Source of the DNA: a virus | Virus record (IMG/VR): IMGVR_UViG_3300042934_000625 | Span: 1-25,196 of that record | Direction: 5' to 3' (one strand) | DNA: 25,196 bases | Shown here: piece by piece, positions 11,569 through 24,584 of the stretch | Numbering within the stretch: position 1 is the first letter of the stretch | How the letters are laid out: each line of letters opens with the position of its first letter | Notes under the pieces: model-generated | The model's input: only the letters and a program-made list of their open reading frames with translations | Database searches by the model: none | Told to the model about the DNA's origin: nothing | Made by a program: the position numbers and the translations under genes

Positions 11569-12732
11569 TTACGCGCCGGAACCGTTGGAGGCCACGGCCG
11601 CCTTGGGGTCCATCGTGGTGCCGCCGAGCACGTGGCGGACCTTGTACTCGAAGGAATCGGTGTCGAAGTCGCCCGCCATCGCGTCCACGCTGCCGCCAAC
11701 GCGCTGGGCGTTGGGGGCCTTCATGAACACCTCGGGCTCCTCGTGGCCGCGCAGGAAGTCCAGCTCCATCGCCGGGCGACCGGTCGACGGGTTGGCGAAC
11801 AGGAACCAGCTGGTGCTGCCGTTGGCCGTCGAGGCGACCAGCGGCAGGTAAGGATCCACGTTCAGGCGGACCTTATTCTTCATCCAGTTCTGGGCGTTCA
11901 GCTTTTGGTTGGCCGTGCCGCCCGCCTCGACGATCTCGATGTGGGTGGCGTTGAGGATGTTCTCAGCGACGACCTGGAGCGCCGGGGGGACGACCAGCTC
12001 GACCGCCTCGATGACGATGGGCTCGCCGTCGGCGTCGACCTGAGAGGCCAGGGCCGTCATAGCCGCCTGCAGGCCGGCGATCGACAGCGCCGGGTTTCCG
12101 GTCACGAGGTTCTTGTTGCCGACCGTGAAGAAGGCAGCGTCGGGACCGTTCGCGCCAGCGTACAGGTCCGTGACGTACCGAGCTTCGGTGCGGCGGGCCG
12201 CCCGGGCGAAGCGATCGGGAATGTCGCGCAACGCGTCCAGGTCGTCGTTGATCAGCGTCTCCCAGCTGATGGGCATGCGAGCGCCGTACTTCTTGACAGC
12301 CAGTTCGTACTTGCCCTCGTTGAGCTTGCGCTCAGGGTACTCGCCGTTCTCGCCCACCTGCGACAGCGTCGCCTCGGCGCCCTCGGTGTAGAGCTTCTTG
12401 GCGGTGCGGAAATCGCGCACGGAGCCCACCTTGCAGTAGTTGCGGTAGGTCGCCGTCGCCTCCCGGTAGTTCGCGAGCAGCATGCGGTCGATGATGTCGC
12501 CGAACAGGATCGGGAAGTCGGAGCGCGTCATCGCCTCCTGCAGGTAGTGGAGGGGCTTCTTGCCGGCGAAGACGTCGGCGACCAGGCCGGCCGCCTCGGC
12601 CAGCAGCGCGAGGTACTTCGGCCCGCGGCGGATGCCGCGGACGCCGGTCCCGTCCTTGTCGCGCGTGAAGACGTCCACCGCCGCAGAACGCTCGCGGTCG
12701 ATGGACTCGATCAGATTCAACAGTTCAGCCAT
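11569..12732 (-). CDS. Major capsid protein (HK97 fold)
   Basis: This 387-residue protein begins with an N-terminal helical part (about 1-70), then LQEAMTRSDFPILFGDI and YRNYCKVGSVRDFRTAKK (about 96-113), EYPERKLNEGKYELAVKKYG (131-150), and RMPISWETLINDDLDALRDI (152-171). The C-terminal part has STSWFLFANPSTGRPAMEL and RGHEEPEVF, ending in KAAVASNGSGA. This is the course of a Mu gpT-like or HK97-fold capsid protein: N-arm, E-loop rich in K/E/Y around 115-150, spine helix, P-domain. TAGGAGG precedes the ATG. Scaffold and protease are encoded just upstream as a separate fused protein, so any N-terminal cleavage would be by that protease. Size and position are both as expected. Confidence 0.93.
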   Translation of the reverse strand: MAELLNLIESIDRERSAAVDVFTRDKDGTGVRGIRRGPKYLALLAEAAGLVADVFAGKKPLHYLQEAMTRSDFPILFGDIIDRMLLANYREATATYRNYCKVGSVRDFRTAKKLYTEGAEATLSQVGENGEYPERKLNEGKYELAVKKYGARMPISWETLINDDLDALRDIPDRFARAARRTEARYVTDLYAGANGPDAAFFTVGNKNLVTGNPALSIAGLQAAMTALASQVDADGEPIVIEAVELVVPPALQVVAENILNATHIEIVEAGGTANQKLNAQNWMKNKVRLNVDPYLPLVASTANGSTSWFLFANPSTGRPAMELDFLRGHEEPEVFMKAPNAQRVGGSVDAMAGDFDTDSFEYKVRHVLGGTTMDPKAAVASNGSGA

Positions 12733-12745
12733 GTTCGCGAGCCTC

Positions 12746-13093
12746 CTAGAACTTGCTCAGTTTGACGGTGATGGTGCCCGTGGCTCCCGCCGCGACGGCG
12801 CCCAGGGCGAAGCCGAAGGGAATGCCCGTCGCCTTCTTGGAGATCTTGGGGTCGTCGGCTTCGACGTAGTAGAGGGCGTCGCCCACGGCCACGGCGCTGT
12901 TGCCGCCGCCGTCCACACCTTTGACCGAGAGGTCGTAGCCGCCGGCCGTGTCGATGGTGGTGTTGCCGGCGGCGTCGGTGTCGGTCTGGGCCACGCCGGT
13001 GATCTGGCCCTTGGCGACCGGGGCGCCGCTCAGGGCAGCGGCGATCGCCAGGGTGAGGTAGCGCGCGTCAGCAAATTTGCGGTTCTTGGCCAT
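12746..13093 (-). CDS. Capsid decoration protein (DUF2190-like)
   Basis: This 115-residue protein begins AKNRKFADARYLTLAIAAAL and runs through APVAKGQITGVAQTDTDAAG, then YDLSVKGVDGGG and VAVGDALYYVEADDPKISKK, to TGTITVKLSKF. The order G-PV--G-I-GVA-T, then a strand, then VGDALYY, is typical of the DUF2190 family, small beta proteins that trimerise on the outer capsid as cement. GGAGG precedes the ATG three codons upstream. It lies between the protease-scaffold and capsid genes, the usual place for cement proteins such as lambda gpD. A copy of the GCGATCGC octamer is inside it. Confidence 0.82.
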   Translation of the reverse strand: MAKNRKFADARYLTLAIAAALSGAPVAKGQITGVAQTDTDAAGNTTIDTAGGYDLSVKGVDGGGNSAVAVGDALYYVEADDPKISKKATGIPFGFALGAVAAGATGTITVKLSKF

Positions 13094-17076: not shown

Positions 17077-18429
17077 TCAGTAGTCTGGCCCGATCGCCAC
17101 CGGGTCGTAGTACTCCACAACTTCGTCGGCAAGCGCCTCCAGTTCGAGCATCAGCTCGGTGAGCAGCCAGACCAGGGCGTCGAGGCGGTCGGGCGACTTC
17201 TCCCCCGTGGTGGGGTCCCAGTTGCACATCTGGTCCTCGAGGAGGGCCAACGAACCGAGGTGGTGGACCTTGCATTGCTCGTACAGGGCCGCGATCGGCT
17301 CGGCTCGGGTCTGTTTGCCGCGGCTCGCGTGGACGGCCTTGTACGGGATGTGCTTCCCAACGGTGCGGAGGTTCACTTCGACCAGGTCGCCGCCGTTGTT
17401 GACCTCGGCGATCACCCTGTCCGCTTCCTGCGCTTCGTAGGTATTCACCACCAGCTCGGCCCACTCGGCGGGCGTGTACTGGCCCGAAACGTCGTCGATG
17501 ATGAAGCCGTGAAGCTCGGGGTACCCCTTGCACGAGCACCAACCGATGCCGCCGGCCACGATCCCCGTTTCGTCCGAGGTCGCCTTCGAGGAGACCGCCG
17601 GGTCGACAGCCACCGCCTTTCGGATGAGAGGCGGCAGCACCTTGACCATCAGGGCTTCAATTTGCGCGCGCTTCCAGAGCGCGCCGGGGTTGTCGTCGAG
17701 GATCTCGGCGTGCAGCTCCTGGCGGCCCAGGCGGGTGCCCTCGTACTTCTTCCTCACGGCCTTGATGAACGGAGCCGCGAGGTTTTCCTCATTCTCGTAA
17801 GTCGTGCCGGTGGTGATCGCCGTCGTCGGGTCCTTGACCAAGTCGCGCACCAGCTTGACGGGCTTGGGCGTGGTCGTGACGACGCACCGGGGATCGTCGC
17901 CCAGGCGCAAGCCGAAGATCAGCATGTCCCAGGCCATCGGGTAGCGCCAGGCGCACAGCTCATCGCACCAGGCGGCGTCGTGCTGGGGGCCGCGAAGGCG
18001 CTCCGGCTCGTCGGCCGAGTAGGCCGTGGCGATCGCCCCGTTCGGCCAGGTCAGGCGCCGCTTAGACGGCTCATACACCGGGCGGTTCCACGGCGGGCAC
18101 ACGGCCAGGATGCCGCTCTCACCCTCAATCATGACGTCGCGCACGTCGGCGGCGGTCGGGCCGACGAGCGCGATGCGCTTGGCCTTCCCGCTCTCGACCA
18201 TGTCGCGGACCCACTCGGCGCCCGTGCGGGACTTGCCGAAGCCTCGGCCGGCCAGCACGAGCCAGACGGCCCACGCGGCGGTGGGCGGCAGCTGCTTGGG
18301 CCGAGCCCAAAGGCCCTTCCAATCGTAGAGAAGGGCCTCGGCCTCGTCGTCCGAGACGTCAGCCAGTGCCGCCAGAATCTGGTCGCGGCTTAAGCCTCGA
18401 CAGGCGCTCAGCAAGTCGCTGTTTGGCAT
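17077..18429 (-). CDS. terL: Terminase large subunit
   Basis: This 450-residue protein carries the packaging ATPase and nuclease. Walker A is GRGFGKS (residues 61-67). Walker B ends in AAWCDELCAW with Asp156-Glu157. The coupling motif is TTTPKP (185-190). The RNase H-like nuclease has Asp276 (AVAVDPAVSS), Glu342 (VIAEVNNGGD) and Asp414/Asp417 (PDRLDALVWLL). It cuts concatemeric DNA and drives it through the portal. GAGGTG lies just before the ATG. Its first 71 bases overlap the small terminase gene in another frame, a longer overlap than for other pairs here. The closest type I recognise is the gp36-like/Terminase_6 group of siphoviruses. Whether it uses cos or headful packaging cannot be read from the sequence. 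Confidence 0.95.
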   Translation of the reverse strand: MPNSDLLSACRGLSRDQILAALADVSDDEAEALLYDWKGLWARPKQLPPTAAWAVWLVLAGRGFGKSRTGAEWVRDMVESGKAKRIALVGPTAADVRDVMIEGESGILAVCPPWNRPVYEPSKRRLTWPNGAIATAYSADEPERLRGPQHDAAWCDELCAWRYPMAWDMLIFGLRLGDDPRCVVTTTPKPVKLVRDLVKDPTTAITTGTTYENEENLAAPFIKAVRKKYEGTRLGRQELHAEILDDNPGALWKRAQIEALMVKVLPPLIRKAVAVDPAVSSKATSDETGIVAGGIGWCSCKGYPELHGFIIDDVSGQYTPAEWAELVVNTYEAQEADRVIAEVNNGGDLVEVNLRTVGKHIPYKAVHASRGKQTRAEPIAALYEQCKVHHLGSLALLEDQMCNWDPTTGEKSPDRLDALVWLLTELMLELEALADEVVEYYDPVAIGPDY

Positions 18430-18928
18430 CGTTCACCTCGACCTGCATGGGCCCGCCGTTGGGACCGGAGACCTCCTGCTTCTCGGGAGCGTTCCATCCG
18501 AACATCTTGGTCAGCTGGCTGATGGCGCCCAGCTTGTCGTGCAGCTTGATGCGCTTTGACCCACCCGTCTCGGTTACTGTCTCCGAGACCTCGGCGACCA
18601 CGCGGCCGTCCACCTCTTCGGCCTCGCAGTCCTTGAGGCGCACGCCATGTGGGCCCCAGTCCACGAAGTCGGTCATGTCGGCGAGGGCGATCCGCTTCAG
18701 CTCAACAGCAACCATCACGGCGGAGAGCCCGGCCCGCTCGGCGACGTCGGCCTGCGCCTTCTTAATCGCCGCTTTGACGCGCGGGTCCTGCAGTAGCTTG
18801 TAGGCCATCTGCTTGGCCGTCTTGGGGCTGTATCCCGCCCGGATGGCCGCCGCCGTCCCATTGCAGTCGATCGGGTATTCCCAGGCGAAACGCTGCGCCA
18901 TCGGCGCAAGAGTCTTCTCTTTCGCCAT
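18359..18928 (-). CDS. terS: Terminase small subunit (Terminase_2 type)
   Basis: This 189-residue protein begins MAKEKTLAPMAQRFAWEYPI. It has a helix-turn-helix-like segment, DCNGTAAAIRAGYSPKTAKQ, followed by MAYKLLQDPRVKAAIKKAQA, the hallmark of the Terminase_2 family (N-terminal DNA-binding helices, A-Y-LL--P-V--AI). The middle (LKRIALADMTDFVDWGPHGV) and the short helix near KLGAISQLTKMFG are also standard. It binds the packaging initiation site and recruits the large subunit. GGAGG precedes the ATG at 18928. An upstream ATG at 18992 in another frame with a good ribosome site and a TTG-started longer form are less likely. The 71-base overlap with the large subunit suggests coupled translation. 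Confidence 0.9.
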   Translation of the reverse strand: MAKEKTLAPMAQRFAWEYPIDCNGTAAAIRAGYSPKTAKQMAYKLLQDPRVKAAIKKAQADVAERAGLSAVMVAVELKRIALADMTDFVDWGPHGVRLKDCEAEEVDGRVVAEVSETVTETGGSKRIKLHDKLGAISQLTKMFGWNAPEKQEVSGPNGGPMQVEVNDAKQRLAERLSRLKPRPDSGGTG

Positions 18929-19172
18929 GCCGCACCTCCGTCCCCGCCGTTTTCGCACGGCGGCAGCGCCTGGCTTTACCAGGGGCGTACATAAGCTCAC
19001 CCCCAATCAGTCAGGGTTGCCTTTAAAAGTTGCTCGGCAGCCGGTGCCGTGCCGGCTTGTCCACCTGGTTCTGAGGAGACGTCTCCTTTCGAGAGATAGT
19101 CACCCAGGCAGCTTCTCACGGGCGCCCCATTAAAGCCCCGGCCCCTACTGGGGAACCGAACGAATCACACAG
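18929..19172 (-). promoter_or_regulatory. Intergenic region before the terminase genes, rich in dyads
   Basis: These 244 bases hold no convincing gene. They contain several dyads: a perfect 14-bp palindrome AGGAGACGTCTCCT (19074-19087), CCTGG-CTTTA-CCAGG (18969-18983), GCCGG...CCGGC (about 19040-19056) and CCCC-TACT-GGGG (19142-19153). Upstream of the small terminase is the usual location for the packaging recognition site and for the late promoter. I see no clear -10/-35 pair on the minus strand, in keeping with a promoter that needs a phage activator. Which dyad is bound by terminase or activator is not decided by the sequence. Confidence 0.5.
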
Positions 19173-19988: not shown

Positions 19989-20312
19989 TTAACGGGCAGG
20001 CGTCAGAAGCCAGGCCAGGATGTTCGGCCTGGCCCGCTCGACGAGGTTGCGCACGGCCGTCGCGCTGATGTTCATCTGGCGGCCGGCGCGGGCATAGTTG
20101 TAGCCCTCGCGCTTGGCGATCGCCGAGGCGTTGCCCTTCTGCACGTAGAAGAGCACGCACTCGAGGGGCAGCGCCCAGAGCACCTGGCACATCGCCTCGG
20201 CCTGCTGGGGTTCGAGGGTGATGACGGCCTGGACGATCTCTTCGGGGGTGAACGTGCGGCCGCTGGCACGGGTCTTGCCGAATTCCTCGAGCAGCTCATA
20301 AAGTGCGGACAT
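19989..20312 (-). CDS. Small HTH / sigma-region-4-like regulator, likely late activator
   Basis: This 107-residue, mostly helical protein contains FTPEEIVQAVITLEPQQAEA, LECVLFYVQKGNASAIAKRE and GRQMNISATAVRNLVERARP. The last two form a helix-turn-helix at about residues 60-95 like sigma factor region 4. Proteins of this size and fold located just before the small terminase gene are often late-gene activators of the ArpU/RinA type; I infer that role. I use the ATG at 20312 with GAGG upstream rather than the longer frame, which runs into the divergent promoter. The gene is divergent from the plus-strand moron at 20381, and they share the 68-base spacer. A terminator follows. Confidence 0.7.
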   Translation of the reverse strand: MSALYELLEEFGKTRASGRTFTPEEIVQAVITLEPQQAEAMCQVLWALPLECVLFYVQKGNASAIAKREGYNYARAGRQMNISATAVRNLVERARPNILAWLLTPAR

Positions 20313-20380
20313 GGGCGAAACCTCGCTATCGTTGGATTCTTGGTAGAATGGCTGCCCGTACGGCAACACTAGGAGGGCGG
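20313..20380 (+). promoter_or_regulatory. Divergent spacer with an extended -10 promoter for the moron
   Basis: On the plus strand TGGTAGAAT (20341-20349) matches an extended -10 element (TGn plus TAGAAT for TATAAT). There is no good -35, as is usual for that class. AGGAGG (20371-20376) follows and then the ATG at 20381. A CCGTACGG palindrome (20356-20363) lies just downstream of the probable start point and could be an operator. The same spacer holds the upstream region of the minus-strand regulator, for which I see no clear promoter. Confidence 0.55.
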
Positions 20381-20884
20381 ATGGCACTCGACGAATTTTT
20401 CAAGTACGCCGCGGCAGTCGGCTTTGGCACCATCTTTGGCGCAGTGATCAATCAGTTCGTTGCGATCTGGCTCGCTGAGCGGGGACGACACTTCGCCGAG
20501 AAGAAGGACGCCTACATGCGCTTCCTCGATGCCTATCAGGAACTTGAAGCCGAGAGACTGGGGACAGGCAGTAGTCCTGAGGCGGCCGCGCAGTATCGGA
20601 AATTGCTAAATGCCATCGATCGCTTAGTTCTCGTCGGGACGCCCGAAGCGGTTTACGCGGCGATAGAACTCCGAGAGGCTATCCTCAGGCTTGAAGCGGC
20701 CGTAATTCACGCCGAGCGTCGGTTGTGCATGGAATCGATGGGCGTTGCCTATAACCGGGCCCGCGACGAATTCCGCCGCGATCTAGGGGTCGACAAGCGG
20801 CTGGTAAGCCAGACGGCTCGCGACCGCCGTGGCGGGATTCTGCGTTTGCTCCGCCAACCCAGCAACAAGGGGAATCAGGTCTAA
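20381..20884 (+). CDS. Membrane-anchored coiled-coil protein, probable moron
   Basis: This 167-residue protein is encoded opposite to its surroundings. Residues ~8-31 form one hydrophobic segment (YAAAVGFGTIFGAVINQFVA), followed by a charged, helical cytoplasmic part with RHFAEKKDAYMRFLDAYQEL and an LRLEAAVIHAERR helix. The tail is basic. The start at 20381 has AGGAGG five bases upstream; the longer frame start is rejected. Base use is slightly less GC-rich than that of its neighbours (TTAGTTCTCG, AATTGCTAAA), a sign of later acquisition. I recall a loose resemblance to hypothetical proteins of genomic islands with one N-terminal membrane helix. Such morons often alter the lysogen or exclude other phages; here that is inference. 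Its last 102 bases overlap the RecU gene on the other strand. Confidence 0.75.
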   Translation: MALDEFFKYAAAVGFGTIFGAVINQFVAIWLAERGRHFAEKKDAYMRFLDAYQELEAERLGTGSSPEAAAQYRKLLNAIDRLVLVGTPEAVYAAIELREAILRLEAAVIHAERRLCMESMGVAYNRARDEFRRDLGVDKRLVSQTARDRRGGILRLLRQPSNKGNQV

Positions 20885-21388
20885 CCCGCCGCGGTCTTTC
20901 ACCACCGCCGCGCAGGTCTGCTTGAACACCTCGAGGGGAATCGACGGCGCCGACTTGCCGCCCAGGTAGCGCGCGCGGTCGGCCTGCTCCCAGTACGGGG
21001 CCAGCACGGGCCAGGTGAGAGCGAAGTAGCGCGGCCCGTCCGGCAGCTCGGAGAACTCGACGAGCAGGAAGGCGATCGCCCCGCGCTCGTGCGCCTCGCG
21101 TAGCCGCCGCGCCTGGTGGGGCTTCACGGTGCGCTTGGGGTCGACGGGGAAGGACTTGCCCTTGGTGCTCTTGGCGTCGAAGGTGACACGCCGGCCGTAG
21201 TAATCGCCGGAGAAGTCGAGCCCGCCCTTCGCGACCAGGCGCCCGCGGGCCCGGCCCTGGCCGTCAACCTTCCCCGCGAACCGGGGGCTGTTTTGCTCGA
21301 GGTCGAGCCCTTCCTCGCGGTACGCCTTCTCCCGCTTTCTTACCAGCGCTTCGAGCGCCGCGCCGGTGCTTTTGGTCTTGGCCGCCAT
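20783..21388 (-). CDS. RecU-like Holliday junction resolvase
   Basis: This 201-residue protein has the RecU layout: an N-terminal helix (ALEALVRKREKAYREEG), then GLDFSGDYYGRRVTFDAKST, with Asp58 and the Asp71-Ala-Lys73 pair of the PD-(D/E)XK core. KRTVKPHQARRLREAHERGA and IAFLLVEFSE follow, then FALTWPVLAPYWEQADRARY and GKSAPSIPLEVF. These steps match RecU well; the enzyme cuts four-way DNA junctions made by recombination and may help resolve phage concatemers or repair forks. GGAGGA precedes the ATG. The C-terminal 33 residues are antiparallel to the moron's 3' end and less conserved in appearance. The N-terminal 42 codons overlap the end of the gene at 21264-21782. Confidence 0.8.
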   Translation of the reverse strand: MAAKTKSTGAALEALVRKREKAYREEGLDLEQNSPRFAGKVDGQGRARGRLVAKGGLDFSGDYYGRRVTFDAKSTKGKSFPVDPKRTVKPHQARRLREAHERGAIAFLLVEFSELPDGPRYFALTWPVLAPYWEQADRARYLGGKSAPSIPLEVFKQTCAAVVKDRGGLDLIPLVAGLAEQTQNPATAVASRLAYQPLVDP

Positions 21389-22398: not shown

Positions 22399-22719
22399 CT
22401 AATCTGGGAGCGGCTGAGCCGGCATCCCAAGGTGTATGCGCAGCAGGTTCGCGGCCTCGTTGAAGCCGATGTTCTTGCCGTAGAACAAGTTGACCTCTTT
22501 CGCGCCACCTCGGCCGCGCTGCGCACAGTACATCGGGTGCGGTGTCACGCGCTTGTCGAGCACAGCCGACACGGCCGCCTTGTAACGGGCGAGATCCCGC
22601 TCCGCCTGGTTCGCTCTCGCTTGCGCCGCGGCGAGCTGCCATTCGAGAGACGCCGGGCAGTATGGCTTGTGCTCCTTGCTGCCCGCCGGGCAGTGCTGGC
22701 ACGCGATGAAGCCGCCCAT
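22399..22719 (-). CDS. Small protein with a cysteine motif
   Basis: This 106-residue protein begins GGFIACQHCPAGSKEHKPYC with Cys7, Cys10 and Cys21, followed by a helix (LEWQLAAAQARANQAERDLA) and a C-terminal part with VLDKRVTPHPMYCAQRGRGG and FYGKNIGFNEAANLLRIHLG. The Cys pattern could bind a metal. No family is recognised. The ATG follows the previous stop by three bases; only a weak TAGG stands upstream, so it is probably coupled. The gene ends with TAG, and the frame continues after it as noted for 22265-22398. The location among small early genes suggests a host-takeover or regulatory role, but this is not shown. Confidence 0.65.
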   Translation of the reverse strand: MGGFIACQHCPAGSKEHKPYCPASLEWQLAAAQARANQAERDLARYKAAVSAVLDKRVTPHPMYCAQRGRGGAKEVNLFYGKNIGFNEAANLLRIHLGMPAQPLPD

Positions 22720-22722
22720 AGC

Positions 22723-22989
22723 CTACTCGGCTTCCATCTCGCCGCGCGCCTCGTTGACGCCCTCGGCAAGCTGTTCGTGGATGCTCTCAAAGAGAGCGTC
22801 GGGGGCATCGTAGAGCAGGCCGAAGACCTCGGCGTACAGCTCGGCGTCCTCCTGGTCGAGGAAGATGGCGGCCACCCCCTCGTACTCGCCGCCGAGCGTC
22901 ACGGCGAGGTAGCCGTGGCCTCCCTGGCGCATCTGTTTCACGACCTCACCCAGGGTCGAGTTGAGAGGGTGTTGATTGAGTTTCTCCAT
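22723..22989 (-). CDS. Small early protein, paralogue of the 21779-22075 product
   Basis: This 88-residue protein starts MEKLNQHPLNSTLGEVVKQM, continues YLAVTLGGEYEGVAAIFLDQ and YAEVFGLLYDAPDALFESIH, and ends acidic. It shares HPLN-T-GE-V, VT-GGE-EG-A-I-LD and LL-DAPD/DASD with the 98-residue protein. GAAAGGAG precedes the ATG well. It is acidic where its paralogue is more neutral, so the two may have diverged in partner. Function is unknown. The protein at 23000-23257 might be a third distant copy. Confidence 0.75.
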   Translation of the reverse strand: MEKLNQHPLNSTLGEVVKQMRQGGHGYLAVTLGGEYEGVAAIFLDQEDAELYAEVFGLLYDAPDALFESIHEQLAEGVNEARGEMEAE

Positions 22990-22999
22990 GGGGCTCCTT

Positions 23000-23257
23000 T
23001 CAGCGGCGATCGCCGCCCCGGGCCGGCGGCCGCGGCGTGAAAAGCTGCTGGGCGGCCGCGGCGAGCTGGCCGAACTGATACCCGACGCACACGGCCACCG
23101 TCACCTCGGCCTGGCCGTCGACCATCGTGTAGTGCGTGGCGTCCTCGGCCTGCATGATGGCGATCAGGTCGCGGACGCGGAGGTCGAGGAAGCCCTCGAC
23201 GCCGGCGGGCACGGGCGGGGCGTCCGGCCACTCGCGGAGAATCAGGGGAAGGGTCAT
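23000..23257 (-). CDS. Small early protein, possible distant member of the same family
   Basis: This 85-residue protein begins MTLPLILREWPDAPPVPAGV and contains FLDLRVRDLIAIMQAED and AEVTVAVCVGYQFGQLAAAA. Helix, strand, strand, helix order resembles that of the two paralogues (L-VGEIVEAVR / ITVTFGGEHEG / AELV), but identity is low, so I give this only as a possibility. The ATG at 23257 has a weak AGG eight bases upstream and the gene starts nine bases after the stop of the preceding gene. It ends directly before the ribosome site of the next gene. Function is unknown. Confidence 0.65.
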   Translation of the reverse strand: MTLPLILREWPDAPPVPAGVEGFLDLRVRDLIAIMQAEDATHYTMVDGQAEVTVAVCVGYQFGQLAAAAQQLFTPRPPARGGDRR

Positions 23258-23265
23258 CTGTGGGC

Positions 23266-23535
23266 CTACTTCCGATTGCGCTTGCGCGCCGCGCGGGAGG
23301 CCTTGGCCTTCGCCTTGTCGCGGGCCTGCATGCCGACCTTGGTGTAGCCCGAGCGGGTCTTCTGCGGGTAGACCTTCCGCAGCTCGCGCCGCTTCATCTC
23401 GGCGATGTCGATCGTCTCGGTGCGCACGACCTGGCCGTTGGGGATGCTCTCGTCGATGACGATGATCTCGCCTCGCGCCTTCATGCCTTCGATGATGCCG
23501 GCGGCTTCCAGTTCGCGGTAAGTGGTGCTGTTCAT
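23266..23535 (-). CDS. Small basic early protein
   Basis: This 89-residue protein begins MNSTTYRELEAAGIIEGMKA, contains IIVIDESIPNGQVVRTETID and IAEMKRRELRKVYPQKTRSG, and ends in a very basic tail (KAKAKASRAARKRNRK). A nucleic-acid-binding role fits the charge but is not proven. The start has GCGAG upstream, and a 5-bp GC stem (23552-23566) precedes it, perhaps affecting ribosome access. I do not recognise a family. The 230 bases beyond its start hold no clear minus-strand gene, so transcription may begin there. Confidence 0.65.
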   Translation of the reverse strand: MNSTTYRELEAAGIIEGMKARGEIIVIDESIPNGQVVRTETIDIAEMKRRELRKVYPQKTRSGYTKVGMQARDKAKAKASRAARKRNRK

Positions 23536-23577
23536 GATGTTCTCGCTTTCTGCCCGTCGTGCGGGCGGTAGGGTGAG

Positions 23578-23763
23578 CTAGGCGAATTCGCATTCGTTTC
23601 CGCTCACCGGCCCTACTGTGGAAAAACCACGATGTATGTCAATAACAACCTGTGTTACAATCCTGGCAACCGCGCCCAAGAGCCTGAGGAGCCAGATTAT
23701 GTTGTTTCCGAGCGCCGCCGTTGCTGCTTTTGCTCCATTCTGGAAACTGATCGCCTGGTTCAT
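23578..23763 (-). CDS. Doubtful small membrane-protein frame
   Basis: The frame encodes 61 residues with a hydrophobic stretch (NNIIWLLRLLGAVARIVTQV). Its codons (GCA, GGA, AAT, AGT) differ from the GC-ending codons of neighbours, and no proper ribosome site stands before the ATG. It lies over the promoter-like sites of the region and competes with the plus-strand 23-residue frame. I list it for completeness with low confidence. Confidence 0.25.
   Translation of the reverse strand: MNQAISFQNGAKAATAALGNNIIWLLRLLGAVARIVTQVVIDIHRGFSTVGPVSGNECEFA
23653..23661 (+). promoter_or_regulatory. Extended -10 promoter element on the plus strand
   Basis: TGT-TACAAT carries the TGn extension and differs from TATAAT at one position. 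The -35 region 17 bases upstream (TGTATG) is poor. A transcript from here would reach the small plus-strand frame at 23699 about 30 bases later. Confidence 0.4.
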
Positions 23764-23770
23764 CCGCTAA
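23699..23770 (+). CDS. Possible 23-residue hydrophobic peptide gene
   Basis: The frame begins MLFPSAAVAAF and ends APFWKLIAWFIR. It is strongly hydrophobic with Trp and basic residues near its end. GAGGAG (23686-23691) stands seven bases before the ATG, and an extended -10 element lies about 38 bases upstream of the ATG. The TAA stop overlaps the TAG stop of the minus-strand gene at 23767. Small hydrophobic peptides of this kind occur among type I toxins and among small membrane regulators. I cannot tell whether it is translated. Confidence 0.35.
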   Translation: MLFPSAAVAAFAPFWKLIAWFIR

Positions 23771-24075
23771 CGGCGCCCTTCTCCCTCGGCCCCAGGGCGA
23801 TCGCTGCCCAGGGGCGGCGCCAAGTCGTCGGTATCGGGCACCGGATGCCCAGGGCACCCGGTCACAGGGTCGAAGGCGTCGCAGTCGCCCATGGGGATGA
23901 GGTGCACGCCCTGGGCCCACAACTCCTCGAGGTTGCGCCGTGCCTCGCGCGGGTGAATCAGCCGGCCCTCCGCATCCTTGAAGCAGTCGTAGTGCGCCTT
24001 TTCGAACTGCTTTGGCGTGTAGTTCTTGAGTACGCCCTCAACGCTCATGGCCATATGGTGAATCGTTGTCGGCAT
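23767..24075 (-). CDS. Small early protein with Cys-His C-terminal motif
   Basis: This 102-residue protein starts MPTTIHHMAMSVEGVLKNYT, has a helical middle (EKAHYDCFKDAEGRLIHPRE and RRNLEELWAQGV) and then GDCDAFDPVTGCPGHPVPD, a Cys/His pattern I recall from short phage proteins with unknown function. GAAAGGA precedes the ATG. It ends at the point where the plus-strand peptide frame also stops. A GCGATCGC copy lies near its C terminus in the Gly-Ser-Asp-Arg codons. No enzymatic motif is seen. Confidence 0.68.
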   Translation of the reverse strand: MPTTIHHMAMSVEGVLKNYTPKQFEKAHYDCFKDAEGRLIHPREARRNLEELWAQGVHLIPMGDCDAFDPVTGCPGHPVPDTDDLAPPLGSDRPGAEGEGRR

Positions 24076-24086
24076 CGTCTGTCCTT

Positions 24087-24584
24087 TCAGCTGGCGTTGC
24101 GGCGGGCCCGCTGCGCCGCTCGCATCTCGGCGCTGCTGTTGTAATTGGCGTAGCAGCTGACGGTCCCGGTGCTCACGCCGTAGTGCTCGGCCAACTGGCG
24201 TCGGGTCATGCCCTGGGCGGCCAGCTGCCGCAGCTCGGCGATCACCGCCGGCGTGAAGGCGAACCCCTTCTTCCGGCGCATCCGCTCCTGCGCGATGGTG
24301 CGCAGGCGCTCGCCCAAGGGCACCGTGTACTTCGGGCGCGGCATGCCGTAGCGCCGCTCGTGCATCAGGCAGGCCGAACAGAGCTGGCGGGAAACGAGGT
24401 GGATCGTCTTCACCTCGTCGCAGTTGCTGCACGGCTTAGGGTTGGCCTTCCTCTTGGCGTTGTATCGCTCGCTGTGCCGGATGATGCTGTCGCGGCTGCG
24501 CTTGCGCTTCTGGCGGTAGGCGTAGCGCTTTCGCTCTTCTTCGTGGGTTGGGCAAAGGTCGCCCGGCTTACATCCGCAGTCCAT
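24087..24584 (-). CDS. Zinc-ribbon plus helix-turn-helix DNA-binding protein
   Basis: This 165-residue protein has Cys3/Cys5/Cys11/His14 near its start, a second Cys cluster (Cys52-x2-Cys55 and Cys69-x2-Cys72) as in a zinc ribbon, and a C-terminal helix-turn-helix at about residues 126-147 (MTRRQLAEHYGVSTGTVSCY) preceded by FTPAVIAELRQLAAQG. The last part resembles resolvase-type HTH domains. It probably binds DNA and controls transcription. GAAAGGAGCG stands before the ATG. Directly upstream lies a region with two palindromes (24585-24710), a possible target for self-regulation. It has no recombinase catalytic domain. Confidence 0.75.
   Translation of the reverse strand: MDCGCKPGDLCPTHEEERKRYAYRQKRKRSRDSIIRHSERYNAKRKANPKPCSNCDEVKTIHLVSRQLCSACLMHERRYGMPRPKYTVPLGERLRTIAQERMRRKKGFAFTPAVIAELRQLAAQGMTRRQLAEHYGVSTGTVSCYANYNSSAEMRAAQRARRNAS

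Follow-up and report, generated by a model that had tools for sequence, protein, structure and literature searches.

The plus-strand gene at 20381-20884 of the virus record IMGVR_UViG_3300042934_000625, a stretch of 25,196 bases that we call the window, is very probably a moron, and alignment with a sister phage shows that it has been swapped between related phages by recombination, as exactly one gene. On the evidence of profile searches its product, P0001, belongs to a diverse, unnamed family for which Pfam, PHROGs, NCBIfam and PADLOC hold no model. We tentatively suggest a part in defence or exclusion.

A reversed gene between early and late genes

The genes of the window form a minus-strand series that runs from recombination and early genes at its right to packaging, head, tail and end genes at its left (Table 1); from their sequences, we read the genes left of the large terminase subunit as portal, capsid and tail genes. 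The plus-strand gene lies at the junction of recU and the gene for a small HTH protein, a probable late regulator. It thereby stands between the recombination/early and the late genes, about 1.4 kb from terS and on its upstream side, and its 3′ end overlaps that of recU by 102 bp. An earlier note on this DNA had singled it out as a plus-strand gene among minus-strand ones, and the observation holds: 20381-20884 is a real gene. No other plus-strand ORF of 100 aa or more has so small an overlap with minus-strand genes (19%, at the 3′ end of recU). The sister phage has a homologue at the same position (33% amino acid identity), from which it differs least at second codon positions (0.41), more at first (0.52) and most at third (0.59), an ordering that argues for a coding gene.

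Table 1. Features of the window that bear on the plus-strand gene.
Feature	Position	Strand	Basis or remark
Terminase large subunit	17077-18429	-	annotated terminases match
Terminase small subunit (terS)	18359-19006	-	late packaging/structure genes start here
Small HTH protein, sigma-70 region 4-like	19989-20312	-	left neighbour, head-to-head with the moron
Exchanged cassette, one gene and putative promoter	20313-20876		DNA homology with the sister ends at 20312 and resumes at 20877 (blastn, alignment)
Extended -10 TGGTAGAAT, putative promoter	20341-20349	+	without -35; sister has TGGTAAGAT
Ribosome binding site AGGAGG	20371-20376	+	4 nt before ATG
Probable moron gene, predicted single-pass membrane protein P0001	20381-20884	+	ATG start, 167 aa
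Predicted membrane-helix region, residues 11-29, GFGTIFG glycine pattern	20411-20467	+	hydropathy, charge, AlphaFold helix
R132-x-D134-L135 codons, the family's most conserved motif	20774-20785	+	alignments
RecU-like Holliday junction resolvase	20783-21388	-	Pfam E=2.7e-14; right neighbour of the moron

Both the strong ribosome binding site and the extended -10 element that the earlier note had described are present before the ATG. Matches to TGNTANAAT are rare in this GC-rich sequence: the window has 2 where 0.24 are expected. The sister phage carries the equivalent TGGTAAGAT 35 nt before its ATG, compared with 31 nt in the window, and the 68-71 bp surrounding the element are otherwise diverged between the two phages. 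A strict sigma-70 scan for the gene found no -35 hexamer and no strict sigma-70 site. The second TGNTANAAT match of the window (TGTTACAAT, plus strand, 23653-23661) lies amid a minus-strand ORF of low GC3 (23578-23763).

The gene also differs in composition. Its GC, already described as lower, is 0.591 compared with 0.666, a level as low as that of just 0.6% of 504-bp windows, and its GC3 is low too, at 0.68 compared with mostly 0.80-0.93 (about 0.88) in the other genes. The sister allele, P0005, has a GC of 0.53 and a GC3 of 0.65. The earlier note had further pointed to the absence of HIP1. The gene does hold zero copies of the HIP1 core GCGATCGC, but the absence is uninformative, since only 0.5 copies are expected in 504 bp (P(0)=0.61), and we rejected it as evidence. 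The whole window holds 25 copies of the HIP1 core where 2.5 are expected, in a phage whose terminase has mostly alphaproteobacterial relatives among genomes. The excess may mean that the host lineage is rich in HIP1 or that the phage has a methylation habit to match.

Comparison with related phages points to the exchange of a single gene

The sister phage, a 42-kb contig (IMGVR_UViG_3300042922_000826; L181), encodes proteins that are 85% (terminase), 93% (HTH) and 86% (RecU) identical to those of the window, and by blastn the DNA is 93% identical up to base 20312 and 83% identical from base 20877. In the slot between, the sister carries the gene for P0005 (146 aa), of the same family and in the same orientation. 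Among shared genes that align over most of their length, the moron has the lowest identity; the others stand at 54-98%. Where the two alleles encode identical residues, 50% of codons differ, compared with 15-20% in the flanking HTH gene, g19300 and recU, and synonymous changes between the alleles are near saturation. Selection acting only on the protein could not increase silent change, so this pattern shows that the gene was replaced by recombination. One break point is at the HTH gene's first codon and the other close to the end of recU, and as a consequence the two phages have different recU tails.

In a more distant phage, L083, the recU, HTH and terminase genes keep this order on a single strand, and no homologue of the moron stands between recU and HTH. 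This check of the locus in related phages gave the strongest evidence we obtained: the allele is replaced in the sister, and the gene is absent from L083. The contrary case named in the earlier note, in which all distant relatives would have the gene in this place and evolving like a core gene, was looked for and not found.

Other parts of the window vary as well. A second variable stretch, at 22399-24584, holds several small minus-strand genes that either lack a sister counterpart or are only 67-70% identical to it. At 1571-2305 the tail-end protein has diverged from that of the sister (39% over part), and at 11569-13093 a capsid/decoration pair is 64% and 54% identical, amid adjoining genes at 89-98%; these two regions suggest further exchange of modules.

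We infer lysogeny from the sister phage, as no integrase or repressor was seen in the 25,196-base window itself. The sister carries a large phage serine integrase (phrog_95, E=8e-97), a Cro/CI-type, repressor-like HTH protein and, adjoining the integrase, what by eye looks like a HicA/HicB-like toxin-antitoxin pair (L181:18288-18961); together these suggest that the lineage is probably temperate. An ImmA/IrrE-like protein was likewise seen by eye further on.

Moron criteria in the literature list an extra gene, differing base composition and "promoter, operator, and/or terminator" (PMC2920897). The gene is variably present among related phages, its composition departs from that of the window (GC 0.59 as against 0.67), and an extended -10, without a -35 match, precedes it in both phages. 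No terminator-like site was found on the plus strand at 20884-21270, a feature that this definition does not require. The proposal of a moron, with a putative promoter of its own, is well supported by the reversed orientation, the conserved extended -10, the foreign composition, the replacement in the sister and the absence from L083. A relative placed likewise in an unrelated P2-like prophage backs it further.

A predicted membrane-anchored helical bundle

Hydropathy predicts one N-terminal membrane helix in P0001 (KD19 maximum 1.73 at residues 11-29), with the positive side after it, in agreement with the single helix proposed before. In the six relatives examined, the net charge before the helix is -1 or 0 and 4-6 basic residues follow within 15 positions; from this charge pattern the C-terminal domain should be cytoplasmic, and the predicted topology is N-out/C-in. 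AlphaFold models of both alleles, built from two-row alignments and of moderate confidence only (mean pLDDT 71.6 for P0001 and 75.1 for P0005), combine a long helix at the N-terminus with a bundle of helices. A coiled coil had also been proposed; residues 88-117 do form a good heptad, but the extended coiled coil did not stand, the models having a long helix and a bundle in its place. The product is predicted to be an inner-membrane protein that exposes little, if anything, on the outside and forms in the cytoplasm a helical bundle that ends in R-x-D/E-L.

A diverse family reached through profiles

P0001 has no match in Pfam, PHROGs, NCBIfam, PADLOC or the sequences of the PDB. Single-sequence scans of viral contigs, genomes and phage records likewise returned no relatives, because the family diverges too fast. 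Relatives were reached with a profile of the two alleles, P0001 and P0005, followed by iteration: the two-allele profile found a relative in 1 of 399 genomes, and the iterated profiles found relatives in about 1-3% of the sampled genomes (proteobacterial and actinobacterial samples). When a profile of seven bacterial relatives, made without phage proteins, was run against a background of about 14,200 ORFs, P0005 (1e-12) and P0001 (2e-5) ranked higher than every unrelated ORF; the test is not fully independent, as these relatives were first reached from phage sequences. All its other above-threshold matches were family members, with no false positives. The remote homology and structure searches suggested in the earlier note thus brought out a diverse family by profiles and, on the side of folds, generic helical bundles only, with no significantly similar structure in the PDB or viral fold searches.

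Members share an N-terminal helix, often with glycines of the GLGS/GFG type, an E-K-K-x-A-Y region, an L-V-x-S-x-x-V turn and a final R-x-D/E-L. A plasmid match (L084) is a remote member only (profile E=8e-6), and one relative (L176) looks truncated. Weak family matches to Glyco_hydro_66, MPN385, phrog_18141 and PGC7_Stella were rejected as chance or membrane-helix composition, and an SPFH-like (L169), a Crp-like (L210) and a glycosyltransferase-like protein (L194) were rejected as false on reading the sequences. Three two-helix membrane proteins of low-GC genomes (L177, L178, L179), with a similar helical domain and R-x-D-L, lie beside a sigma-factor-like gene and are possibly a chromosomal branch of this family.

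Relatives are known from phages, prophages and integrase islands of several bacterial groups. One relative (G560) is a plus-strand gene within the tail operon, itself on the minus strand, of a P2-like (sheathed-tail) prophage, between the tape measure and a gpE-type chaperone. Elsewhere a tRNA-Val is followed by an integrase and then the relative in reverse (G344), a tRNA-Ser is followed by the relative and the contig end (G528), and a relative adjoins an integrase (G999). A remote member on Caballeronia plasmid p2 is beside an integrase, and the plasmid has type I restriction and Abi genes. In G704, split over two contigs, the relative is downstream of a tyrosine recombinase resembling an integron integrase. 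The array behind this integrase (L198, L199) comprises the relative, a RadC-like gene and a 433-aa protein whose start looks TIR/SEFIR-like, with no Pfam match; the whole may be a cassette array of defence genes. Of the bacterial relatives, about half are found in ordinary chromosome, one of them between argF and argB (G397), a setting that is not obviously mobile, as is also the case in G545, G767, G860, G901 and G954. Mobile settings of the relatives are common, not universal.

Proposed function and alternatives

We propose that a single-gene cassette with its own promoter was inserted in reverse at the early/late gene boundary of a probably temperate phage; the sequences show that related phages exchange this cassette by recombination. 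Most likely, the lysogen would make the protein at a time when the lytic operon is off. Acting at the inner membrane from its cytoplasmic side, the protein would guard the lysogen against other phages, either by keeping their genomes out or as an abortive-infection switch anchored in the membrane. That the moron serves defence or exclusion as a cytoplasmic, membrane-anchored helical bundle is our best guess, if a tentative one; the defence or conversion factor of the earlier note was a fair guess from context.

Tab of Pseudomonas phage JBD26, a moron reversed by the terminase genes that provides constitutive defence from its own promoter, is the closest working precedent for this layout (PMC10884400). 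Like Tab, the gene is a small moron on the strand opposite to the late genes, near the terminase genes and with an own, here putative, promoter. Unlike the 83-residue Tab, P0001 has 167 aa and a membrane helix; Tab lies between the terminase subunit genes, whereas the P0001 gene is upstream of terS; and Tab comes with an anti-Tab gene, whereas the exchanged cassette holds one gene only. A co-exchanged antagonist as in Tab is ruled out, both neighbours being 86-93% conserved while the moron changes. P0001 has no sequence match in phage records.

Other likenesses are of layout or kind. RNA-seq of Salmonella prophages found STMMW_20121 of prophage ST64B-D23580, antisense to lytic genes, to have a promoter of its own from which the lysogen transcribes it (PMC7067206); the P0001 gene is likewise antisense to lytic genes with a putative promoter of its own. 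The superinfection-exclusion proteins HK97 gp15 and P22 SieA are prophage-encoded membrane proteins of the moron kind (PMC10884400, PMC10883804). P0001 is like them in this respect and unlike them in having no sequence match to any PHROG or phage record. P22 SieA has several membrane helices. With one predicted N-terminal helix and a cytoplasmic helical part, P0001 is also like the PADLOC 'Effector, 1TM'; unlike the 1TM effectors of abortive systems, it has no adjoining sensor gene, and neither P0001 nor P0005 matches the curated PADLOC defence profiles at E<=1. A distant relative (L192) matches the '1TM effector' profile at E=0.0016, too weakly to carry weight.

It is possible, if rather doubtful, that the moron alters host physiology or the envelope, through stress, growth or membrane function, and does not act on other phages. 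The moron evidence, with its sister replacement and diverged alleles, applies equally here; a membrane-anchored cytoplasmic helical bundle, as modelled, would suit partner binding; and the half of the relatives in ordinary chromosome, where neither phage nor defence genes are evident nearby, would fit a general cell function. However, the very patchy distribution of the family across sampled genomes and its frequent presence on mobile elements are more in keeping with a conflict gene than with a housekeeping gene.

Improbable, in our judgement, is a gene of the lytic cycle that acts early, from its own promoter, in host takeover or in lysis timing as a holin/antiholin-like protein. The single membrane helix would fit, as would a putative promoter that needs no phage regulator and a weak PHROG holin match of P0005 (E=0.33), the one lysis match of the two alleles, P0001 having none among PHROGs. 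Yet the gene is reversed relative to all lytic genes and absent in L083, holin-like or lysis-type genes are found elsewhere on sequence reading (131-397 in the window; the end of the sister contig), and the predicted topology, C-in with a large domain in the cytoplasm, does not resemble that of a spanin. Highly improbable is a neutral passenger or decaying insertion without current function, which the single-gene insertion, its foreign composition and the truncated look of L176 would suit, but both phage alleles are intact and keep the family residues K41, R132, D134 and L135 despite near-saturated synonymous change, from which we infer purifying selection on the protein.

Morons drive lysogenic conversion and competition between phages, and most are unannotated. 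Here exactly one gene has been exchanged between near-identical phages, and it is linked to a family that has no existing model. For a moron serving defence or exclusion, the alleles P0001 and P0005, in nearly the same backbone, offer a direct test of differing specificity. A broader reading, which we consider unlikely, is that the family, made up of single-pass, C-in membrane proteins with a glycine-rich N-terminal helix, a helical bundle and the R-x-D/E-L motif near the C-terminus, comprises one-gene anti-phage modules moved by phages, integrase islands, cassette arrays and plasmids. If it were true, phage loci would exchange anti-phage alleles of differing specificity at one fixed slot.
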